A stretch of DNA of 64,000 nucleotides, taken from NCBI RefSeq assembly GCF_009827655.1, contig NZ_WTYV01000001.1, forward strand, positions 496,001-560,000, written 5' to 3'. Shown here in pieces: positions 55,866 to 62,202 of this stretch (its first letter is position 1; each line of letters begins with the position of its first letter). The position numbers and the translations under genes were made by a program. Source of the stretch: Alteraurantiacibacter buctensis (lineage in GTDB: Bacteria > Pseudomonadota > Alphaproteobacteria > Sphingomonadales > Sphingomonadaceae). Below the pieces are notes generated by a model that was not told the origin of the DNA, did no database searches, and saw only the letters and a list, made by a program, of their open reading frames with translations.

Positions 55866-56437
55866 GCGGCAAGGGCCCCGAACTGGCGCAAGGCACCAAG
55901 GACTGGCAGCAGCGGCAGGCCGAGCACGGTGAAATGGTCTCCCTCGATCGCCGAGAACAGGTGCACCCCGCGTGCTTCGATGCGGAACACGCCCACACAA
56001 TGGCTGACTTCGGGCCACTCGGCGGCGAGGTAGTCGGCAATGAAGCTATCCGACAGCTCGCGCACATGCAGGCGGGCAAGGGCCGCGTGGTCCCACACCA
56101 CTTCGCCATCGCGCGCCAATGCGGCGGCAGAATGCAGTTCCATCACCTGGCCCGAGAAGAACCGCAGGTGCGCGGCGGCTTCCTCAAGGTTGCGCGGCTT
56201 GTCGAACCGCCGGCCCTGGACCGAAACCAGGGAATCGCTGCCCAGCACCAGGCCATCGGCCGGCACAGCCAGCGCCTTGGCCCGGGCCAGGGCCAGCGCC
56301 ACGTCTGCCGGTGCGGCATCGCCCAGCGCGGCTTCCACCGCGCGCTCGTCCACCGCGCCGGGCCGGGCCTGAAACGGCACGCCCGCCGCCGCCAGCATGG
56401 CCTGGCGCGATTGGCTCTTGGAGGCGAGGGTAATCAT
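55862..56437 (-). CDS. maf: Maf-like nucleoside triphosphate pyrophosphatase
   Basis: House-cleaning pyrophosphatase for non-canonical NTPs, 191 aa. Family start '[21 protein letters not shown]', '[18 protein letters not shown]' and the C-terminal Asp/Glu region ('[15 protein letters not shown]'). Overlaps ppsR upstream and aroE downstream (ATGA both sides). Confidence 0.94.
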
Positions 56438-57279
56438 ATCGGCTTGATTCCGTGCGGCTCGTCGTTCCCGCGCGCCTCTCGCTCCTGGTACAGCTTGATC
56501 ACGGCGGCGGCTGTTTCCTCGATCGAGCGACGGGTGACGTCAATCACCGGCCAGCCGTTATCGGCAAACATGCGGCGGGCAAAGGCCACTTCCTTCTCCA
56601 CCCGCTCCTCGTCGATGTAGGCGGTCTCGGTCCGCTCGTTCAATGAGAGCAGGCGGTTGCGGCGGATTTCGATCAGCCGCTTGGGGGCCGTTGTCAGCCC
56701 TACGACCATCGGGTGCTTGAGCGAAAACAGGCTGGGCGGTGGCGGGCTTTCCACCACCAGCGGGATATTGGCCACCTTGAACCCGCGGTTGGCCAGGTAG
56801 ATGGAGGTGGGCGTCTTCGAGGTGCGCGAAACGCCGGCCAGCACGATCTGCGCCTCCTCCCAGTTCTCCCAGCCGATCCCGTCATCATGGGCGATGGTGA
56901 ACTGGATGGCGTCGACCCGGTCGAAATAGGCCTTGTCGAGCACGTGGCGCGCGCCGGTGCGGCCGTGGGCGGTCTGGCCCAGGTGGTCCTCCAGCGCGTG
57001 GGTTACCGCATCCAGCGCCGCGATGTGGGGCAGGCCCAAGGCGGAACAGCGCTCTTCCAGCCGGGCGCGGGTTTCCGGATTGGCCAGGGTGTAGAGCACC
57101 AGGCCGGGATGGGCCTTGAACTCCTCCATGATCCGGTCAAGGTGCTGGCGGCTGCGGACCATCGGCCAGAAATGGCGCGCCACCTCCGGCCCGTCGAACT
57201 GGGCGATTGCCGCCTTGGCAATCATTTCGAGCGTTTCGCCGGTGGAATCCGACAGCAGGTGAAGGTTGAGGCGGGGCAT
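56434..57279 (-). CDS. ppsR: bifunctional kinase/pyrophosphorylase PpsR
   Basis: DUF299 regulator of PEP synthase or pyruvate phosphate dikinase, 281 aa. Starts '[20 protein letters not shown]', with P-loop-like '[19 protein letters not shown]' (about 148-166) and C-terminal '[16 protein letters not shown]'. ATG 57279 chosen; the frame continues upstream across the origin region and is not credible. In Caulobacter the homologous gene flanks the replication origin opposite hemE, exactly as here. Confidence 0.93.
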
Positions 57280-57583
57280 GTGGACAAACCCACGCATAAA
57301 CCACGGGAGGGGCCTATGGACAAGCACGGCATGGGTTTTCACCCCCGCTGACCGGGATTCCGCCAGCGGCTTTGTGGACAGGGCGGCAGGGTTATGGACA
57401 GCCTGTTGATAGCGGGGAGAGATTCTGTTTGACCACGCAGGGCTGCAGAGTCGCATGGCCTTTCGCCCCCTGTTCACCACGGGAGAAATCGGGCAAGGGC
57501 GCACAATCCCCGCAATCCACAGGGCCAACAGACTCCTAAATTCTTATAAGAATCTATTATTTTATTGTTTGGACTCTTTCACG
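57280..57583. other. candidate chromosomal replication origin (oriC)
   Basis: A 304-bp gap between divergent ppsR and hemE, the position of Cori in Caulobacter. It contains DnaA-box-like 9-mers: TGTGGACAA at 57279-57287 (1 mismatch to TGTGGATAA), and 2-mismatch copies at 57315, 57373, 57392, 57404 and 57513. GANTC methylation sites lie at 57356, 57421, 57448, 57531, 57550 and 57572, plus one at 57245. An AT-rich tract (57537-57571, with palindrome TTCTTATAAGAA at 57541-57552) would serve as the unwinding element. Gene direction switches here. No single strong consensus DnaA box is present, as in Caulobacter. Confidence 0.75.
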
Positions 57584-58606
57584 ATGCCCGGAATTCTCCT
57601 TGATACGCTGCGTGGCCAGGTGACCGACAGGCGGCCCGTGTGGCTGATGCGCCAGGCCGGACGCTACCTGCCCGAATACCGGGCCCTGCGCGCGGAGAAG
57701 GGCGGGTTCCTGGCCCTTGTCTATGACAGCGAGGCGGCAGCCGAGATCACCCTGCAACCGATCCGCCGCTTCGGTTTTGACGGGGCGATCCTGTTTTCCG
57801 ACATCCTGATCGTGCCCCACGCCCTGGGCCAGGACCTGCAGTTCCTCGCGGGCGAGGGGCCGCACCTGTCGCCCCGGCTGGTCGATACCGCGCTGTCGGC
57901 GCTCACCCCCGCGCCGCACCATTTCCAGCCGGTGTGGGACACCGTGCGGCTAACCAGGGCGCAACTGGGCCCGGACAAGACCATGCTGGGCTTTATCGGC
58001 AGCCCGTGGACCGTGGCGACCTACATGGTGGCGGGCGAAGGGTCGAAGGACCATCACCTGGCGCGGGCCATGGCCTATCGCGATCCGGCAGCCTTCGGGG
58101 CGATCATCGATGCCATCGTGGACAGCTCGCTGGTCTATCTCTCCGGGCAGATCGAGGCCGGCGCGGAAGCCGTGCAACTGTTCGATTCCTGGTCGGGCAG
58201 CCTTTCCCCCCAGCAGTTCGAGCGCTGGGTTGTGGCCCCCACCGCGCGGATCGTAAGTACCATTCGCGCAAGGCACCCCGAGGTGCCGATCATCGGCTTT
58301 CCCAAGGGAGCAGGGGCCAAGCTGCCGGCCTATGCGCGGGAAACGGGCGTTGACGCCGTGGGCGTGGACGAGACGCAGGATCCGCGCTGGGTGCACGCCC
58401 AGTTGCCGCCGGAAATGCCGGTGCAGGGCAATCTCGACCCGCTGCTGCTGATATCCGGCGGAGCGGAGCTTGAAGAGGCTGCGCGCGCCGTGCTGGCTGC
58501 CTTTGCCGACCGGCCCCACGTGTTCAACCTGGGCCACGGGATCGACAAGTCCACACCTATCGCCCACGTTGAACGGCTGCTGGAAATTGTCCGCTCATCC
58601 GCCTAA
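57584..58606 (+). CDS. hemE: uroporphyrinogen decarboxylase
   Basis: Heme pathway enzyme converting uroporphyrinogen III to coproporphyrinogen III. 340 aa with signatures 'PVWLMRQAGRYLPEYR' (about 19-34), 'ILFSDILIVPHALG' and 'GFIGSPWTVATYM'. ATG 57584 gives the standard start; longer frame upstream is inside the origin. First gene to the right of the origin. Confidence 0.97.
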   Translation: MPGILLDTLRGQVTDRRPVWLMRQAGRYLPEYRALRAEKGGFLALVYDSEAAAEITLQPIRRFGFDGAILFSDILIVPHALGQDLQFLAGEGPHLSPRLVDTALSALTPAPHHFQPVWDTVRLTRAQLGPDKTMLGFIGSPWTVATYMVAGEGSKDHHLARAMAYRDPAAFGAIIDAIVDSSLVYLSGQIEAGAEAVQLFDSWSGSLSPQQFERWVVAPTARIVSTIRARHPEVPIIGFPKGAGAKLPAYARETGVDAVGVDETQDPRWVHAQLPPEMPVQGNLDPLLLISGGAELEEAARAVLAAFADRPHVFNLGHGIDKSTPIAHVERLLEIVRSSA

Positions 58607-62186: not shown

Positions 62187-62202
62187 TGTTCCACGTGGAA
62201 CA
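62187..62202. promoter_or_regulatory. parS centromere site
   Basis: Perfect 16-bp palindrome TGTTCCACGTGGAACA directly after the mnmE stop. It matches the universal ParB-binding parS consensus (TGTTNCACGTGNAACA). It lies about 4.6 kb from the candidate oriC and just before mnmG; parA/parB usually follow mnmG-rsmG in this group and would be just outside the window. Confidence 0.92.

Follow-up and report, generated by a model that had tools for sequence, protein, structure and literature searches.

The stretch analysed here (the window) comprises 64 kb of Alteraurantiacibacter buctensis, namely positions 496001–560000 of contig C10 in a 3.77-Mb draft assembly of 22 contigs. It contains a 304-bp intergenic gap flanked by the divergent genes ppsR and hemE, neighbours which we take to be those of the Caulobacter origin Cori as well. 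Both genes had been named in the original prediction, which placed a chromosome replication origin between them, and both are borne out by domain matches (Table 1). A PpsR match was present in 136 of 147 genomes of the order, and ppsR and hemE are divergent in all 143 distinct loci with both genes (150 loci used, minus six duplicates and one without a hemE match). Among the class genomes examined, 66 of 95 have a PpsR match; 20 further class loci were hand-picked from 64 further genomes with such a match, and 18 of these show the divergent pair, while the other two have no hemE match. The gap between a divergent ppsR-like gene and hemE that characterizes alphaproteobacterial origins of the hemE type is, hence, found here. 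In one genus (g12), all five sampled genomes (G094, G103, G112, G120, G141) lack a PpsR match, and the neighbour of the origin may differ there.

Table 1. Features in and around the ppsR–hemE gap (window coordinates; strand given where assigned).
Feature	Position	Strand	Remark
ppsR (kinase/pyrophosphorylase, PF03618), left neighbour of gap	56434..57279	-	start codon ends at 57279
DnaA-box-like TGTGGACAA	57279..57287	-	1 mismatch; GTGGAnA conserved
Probable oriC, gap between divergent ppsR and hemE	57280..57583		gene order; polarity in relatives
E2 block GCATAAACCACGGGAG	57294..57309		family only; single copy in 9/12 genomes searched
Weak DnaA-box-like TATGGACAA	57315..57323	-	GACAAG conserved
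Span of six GANTC sites	57356..57576		kept in 6, 7, 108, 67, 7 and 37 of 121 gaps, respectively
Weak DnaA-box-like TGTGGACAG	57373..57381	-	mismatch scan, family alignment
Tandem weak boxes (57392 +, 57404 -)	57392..57421		family consensus CCACAGGCTGGGGATAGCGGGGATAA at 57396-57421
GANTC (CcrM) site, family context GAKTCG	57448..57452		kept in 108/121 gaps
E7 block GGAGAAATCGGGCAAG	57482..57497		conserved in family
DnaA box beside AT-rich element, CAATCCACA	57513..57521	+	family consensus ATATCCACA
Place of DnaA-trios, degenerate here	57522..57539	+	contains GANTC 57531
AT-rich tract, putative unwinding element	57536..57571		window maximum
hemE (uroporphyrinogen decarboxylase, PF01208), right neighbour of gap	57584..58606	+	start at 57584
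parS consensus TGTTCCACGTGGAACA	62187..62202		C10:558187; palindrome search

Six 9-mers with at most two mismatches to TTATCCACA begin at 57279, 57315, 57373, 57392, 57404 and 57513, in agreement with the predicted number and with 57279 as the best of them. Only this one has a single mismatch, and it overlaps the start codon of ppsR by one base. When the window was scanned in 300-bp windows (step 20), the gap held the densest box cluster, with six boxes compared to four in the runner-up listed (near 15.9 kb). The boxes are weak, which counts against reading the gap as an origin. As expected of a hemE-type origin, DnaA boxes are clustered next to an AT-rich element.

Conservation was assessed in an alignment of 121 ppsR–hemE gaps of the family (effective number 79). 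A second genome of the genus, G019, has a gap identical to that of the window. The sample over-represents Erythrobacter-like genera, since its named loci are the best 80 PpsR matches among those listed; family membership of loci L077–L156 was taken from database titles and PpsR identity. A 976-bp gap, about three times the family norm (L030, genome G074), was excluded, and one locus of the same family (L056, G053) was counted in the order group for block scoring, the strict trio test and motif counts. Besides E2, E7 and GANTC 57448, the conserved blocks are GTGGAnA at 57280, GACAAG at 57319–57324, the weak-box block at 57396–57421, TTGAC at 57429 and ATCCCCGnnATCCACAGGGCCAACAnACTCCA at 57506–57537, the last adjoining the AT-rich tract. 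GGAYAR half-boxes are mostly on one strand (3.08 per family gap on the plus strand vs. 0.58 on the minus strand). A perfect TTATCCACA occurs in 10 of 121 family gaps compared to 16 of 21 gaps of the order and 8 of 18 of the class. Scored against shuffled sequences, the weak-box block stands out in 19 of 21 order and 11 of 18 class gaps, and the block beside the AT tract in 12 of 21 and 14 of 18, respectively.

No 35-mer of the window is richer in AT than the one at 57536/57537 (30 of 35 positions), which bears out the tract predicted at 57537–57571. A 12-bp palindrome had also been proposed; a palindrome is indeed there, but it is 14 bp long as read from the sequence (57540–57553) and absent from the family consensus. 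As a functional element it was rejected, being unconserved in the family.

DnaA-trios, as defined in passages of PMC8235120 and PMC8287927, have a central T on the strand reading towards hemE. Canonical trios, i.e., three consecutive ones with a central T on the plus strand after the box, were found in none of 116 family gaps. Since this strict test is passed by only one of 21 order and one of 18 class gaps, it separates little. A looser test does separate; gaps without a box scoring at least 6 were dropped, which left 108 of 121 in the family, 16 of 21 in the order and 8 of 18 in the class. Of the 108 family gaps so retained, 7 have at least two in-frame YTR and 51 at least one CTA, compared to 13 and 22, respectively, of the 24 others. 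In the family, G makes up only 6% of the stretch that follows the box vs. 28% of whole gaps. Compared to the basal unwinding system, as passages of PMC8287927 and PMC8235120 present it, the gap is alike in its DnaA box, short GC-rich spacer and AT-rich DNA on the hemE side, but unlike in the degenerate trios of the sphingomonad family. Deviant trios are suspected in the 15% of genomes without a match, according to a passage of PMC8287927, and E. coli likewise has few trios in the part of PMC8235120 concerned; degenerate trios, therefore, need not be functionally strange.

The E2 block is confined to the family. Its core word ATAAACCACGG occurs in 99 of 121 family gaps (99 of 122 including L056) and in none of 38 gaps outside the family. 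Scored against shuffles, the block stands out in one of 21 order and two of 18 class gaps, none of them with the core word. CATAAACCACGGNA was found once per genome, in the ppsR–hemE gap, in nine of 12 genomes and had no exact match in the other three. The consensus patterns tried for CtrA, IHF and DnaA sites fail to account for E2, and these identities were rejected. Two exact matches to E2 in viral contigs were read as chance, as tblastn with PpsR, HemE, HemJ and Rho printed no match on these contigs; plasmid records searched with the gap gave no match.

The Caulobacter-type CtrA double site TTAA-N7-TTAA was found in none of the 121 family gaps, including that of the window, and the same holds for the half site TTAACCAT. 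TGATCCACA, presumably the Caulobacter G-box, occurs in three of 121. In both the double site and the G-box the family gaps are unlike Cori. In Sphingomonas melonis, growth is unharmed by the loss of CtrA, as stated in a passage of PMC8116508.

Six GANTC sites lie within 221 bp of the gap (57356, 57421, 57448, 57531, 57550, 57572). There are 90 GANTC in the 64 kb, and the maximum of five per 220-bp window is reached at this place only. The prediction of six sites in about 220 bp, where chance would give about one, holds in its count, and the excess extends to the family: the mean is 4.91 per gap vs. 1.21 after shuffling, and 118 of 121 gaps exceed their own expected number. For the other families of the order (20 gaps, L056 removed), the mean is 1.95 vs. 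1.45 (10 of 20 above). High GANTC counts also occur in several other alphaproteobacterial gaps (up to eight in the class), and the family is thus not alone in its enrichment. The largest number in all gaps examined, 13 GANTC in 457 bp, was seen in the ppsR–hemE gap L076 (G004) of another family of the order. A GANTC within 30 bases after the box is found in 85 of 108 family gaps (10.3 expected), 5 of 16 order gaps (0.9) and 3 of 8 class gaps (0.8).

Of the individual sites, 57448 is the one best kept. When mapped onto a HemE tree (FastTree), its presence changes three times while its free base changes 19 times (G/T only), and the next base is G in 106 of 108 cases. Retention of the site while its free base varies marks the methylation site itself as a target of selection, which does not by that fact establish a role. 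YGAKTCG, which we take to be the GcrA motif, fits 60 of the 108 sites. A less secure site is 57531, which lies nine bases into the post-box stretch: 67 of 121 gaps retain it, with 20 presence vs. 12 free-base changes, and as a key site it was downgraded on these numbers. A CcrM-type RAMA domain is present in 135 of 147 genomes of the order. The source genome has matches for DnaA, CcrM-type RAMA and GcrA; the GcrA match consists of N- and C-terminal parts at contig ends (C16:120-353 and C19:256472-256648), perhaps one gene cut by an assembly break.

What the GANTC cluster does can be read in two ways. It might reflect a general intergenic bias or serve the transcription of hemE or ppsR, with no part in origin control. 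Passages of PMC8067484 report GANTC as over-represented between genes and methylated in a Sphingomonas strain, and say nothing on the origin. In the parts of PMC3973325 that bear on this, GANTC motifs are described in the origin of Caulobacter and relatives, and CcrM is not required for the control of initiation; for Agrobacterium, a passage of PMC11514494 reports an effect on ori2, that on ori1 being not significant. In view of these reports, and of the absent CtrA double site, we would put forward control of the sphingomonad origin by CcrM methylation and GcrA/DnaA, which the prediction had modelled on Caulobacter, only as a hypothesis. On the other hand, a mere intergenic bias is at odds with 4.58 GANTC per 300 bp in the ppsR–hemE gap vs. 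0.70 in the hemJ–rho gap of the same 63 genomes, and with the persistence of 57448 through so many changes of its free base. Because selection on 57448 does not show origin control, we consider the odds for and against a cluster with no role at the origin to be even.

A second parS follows the one in Table 1 at C10:560309, just beyond the window, and the two lie 4.6 and 6.7 kb from the gap. parS was present in 11 of 13 genomes examined, and all 11 have two or more copies no farther than about 13 kb from ppsR. The single-contig Sphingomonadaceae chromosome G143:C1 has 25 parS-consensus palindromes chromosome-wide; each of the other 10 parS-bearing genomes has two to three, close to the origin.

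Strand polarity was examined with GGGNAGGG, presumably the motif that orients FtsK in E. coli, which was picked before its distribution was viewed. The sample was limited to three genomes hand-picked among those in a single contig, G025 (same genus), G077 and G110 (same family), with 20 stretches of 20 kb from each. If replication is taken to start at the gap and to end halfway round the chromosome, co- and anti-oriented copies number 86:16 in G025, 76:10 in G077 and 86:8 in G110; a reversed control motif leans the same way, though less (52:29, 37:22 and 54:30, respectively). When all origin positions were scored, the gap gave the maximum in G025 and G077, and 78 vs. a maximum of 80 in G110; positions scoring as well as the gap make up 4.5% (G025), 10% (G077) and 5.1% (G110). 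For G077 and G110 the gap also gives the maximum of a GC-skew model; for G025 it scores 2045 vs. a maximum of 2081. Permuting the stretches of G025 with origin and terminus both free gave p = 0.003, and 20 extra stretches placed its terminus switch between 2.90 and 2.92 Mb (expected, 2.917). The polarity of G025 is weak for about 200 kb on each side of the gap, and in G077 the raw sign changes only after 305 kb, with the gap at 171 kb. Polarity and GC skew in the three complete relatives thus fit an origin at or near the gap, within the resolution of the sampling.

The draft contig itself gives a mixed picture. Of the GC-skew check proposed with the prediction, the relatives supplied the supporting half, but C10 shows no switch: plain skew is −0.008 to the left and −0.005 to the right of the gap (p = 0.98). 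By eye, plain skew gave a weak signal on C10 and the G025 stretches, and fourfold skew corrected for the coding strand was noisy. GGGNAGGG is oriented as expected at 0–390 kb (15+/42−) and 553–690 kb (21+/8−) of C10, mildly wrongly at 400–553 kb (23+/14−) and strongly wrongly at 700–940 kb (9+/51−). In the source strain, this last mismatch is what speaks most strongly against a simple reading. In synteny, C10 at 800–905 kb has, for the most part, the orientation of G025 at 967–1056 kb, while the block around the gap is opposite, which suggests an inversion or an assembly misjoin in C10 beyond 690 kb.

Could the gap be merely a two-way promoter of ppsR and hemE, with the boxes and GANTC sites regulating these genes and the origin elsewhere? 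TTGAC is conserved upstream of GANTC 57448, and the own-contig skew would fit as well. Furthermore, the hemJ–rho gap, which is no origin, is nearly as conserved in 63 of the same genomes (mean 0.81 vs. 1.00 bits per column; 23% vs. 27% of columns with at least 1.5 bits; best 10-column windows 1.94 vs. 1.98), so the strength of a footprint alone proves no origin. Nevertheless, the polarity of the relatives points to this place, parS lies nearby, the gap combines the box cluster with the AT tract, and the box beside that tract is recognizable across the class; a promoter without an origin is, thus, very improbable. Still less credible is an origin at dnaA, as in many bacteria: dnaA sits away from the gap, on contig C22, but the 3.6 kb around it hold just three scattered boxes with at most two mismatches against six in the gap. 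A 179-aa open frame with a DnaA DNA-binding domain was noted at G000:C19:196444-196632 (L033).

On the basis of gene order, the box cluster, parS and the strand polarity of complete relatives, we regard the gap at 57280–57583 as very probably the chromosomal oriC, with a probability of roughly 93%. The original prediction is, in this central point, well supported, the mixed signal of its own draft contig notwithstanding.

From what can be read in the sequence itself, i.e., gene order, box array, AT-rich tract, GANTC conservation and the polarity of the relatives, initiation at this oriC may be pictured as follows. DnaA-ATP would be anchored at the conserved box 57513–57521 beside the AT-rich element and would spread over the mostly one-directional array of weak, GGAYAR-type boxes (57279–57421). 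The tract at 57536–57571 would then melt, followed by helicase loading, and the two parS sites would serve the segregation of the new origins. The CcrM site 57448 may report or modulate the hemimethylated state of the newly replicated origin, by way of either DnaA assembly or GcrA-dependent transcription of hemE.

An origin next to hemE is already known for this group. Passages of PMC4741004 locate the Sphingopyxis origin close to hemE, describe conserved DnaA boxes and a DUE in it, and mention that DoriC predicts the same location for most Sphingomonadaceae; a passage of PMC4059872 reports such a location for Novosphingobium PP1Y and N. aromaticivorans. The gap studied here is like these in its place beside hemE and its DnaA boxes, and like Sphingopyxis in a putative DUE. 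The claim of a little-described origin type, accordingly, fails for the location, which is in print for the family, but stands for its parts: neither E2 nor the selected GAKTCG, and likewise neither the missing CtrA sites nor the degenerate trios, are described in the passages of PMC4741004 and PMC4059872 concerned. Among the titles listed in searches of open-licence PubMed Central, none told of a sphingomonad oriC mapped by experiment; this does not prove that such work is absent. With Cori, as covered in parts of PMC4468827, PMC10225481 and PMC3973325, the gap shares weak DnaA boxes and GANTC in the origin, yet the make-up of its parts differs from the Caulobacter origin. A bolder proposal would make the Sphingomonadaceae a distinct origin type, in which CtrA control is gone, the trios have decayed, the single-copy, family-specific ATAAACCACGG element is possibly read by an initiation factor, and the selected GAKTCG makes firing sensitive to hemimethylation in a manner like Dam/SeqA, via CcrM and perhaps GcrA. 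This we consider speculative and rather unlikely as a whole.

The origin make-up specific to the family merits a test at the bench. For a large, cultivable alphaproteobacterial family, the parts of an oriC are now named and open to testing. Even where an origin sits as in Caulobacter, CtrA double sites and canonical DnaA-trios can apparently be lacking while a CcrM site is still kept by selection, and with a selected CcrM site in such an origin, the old question of CcrM in initiation becomes testable in a lineage other than Caulobacter.
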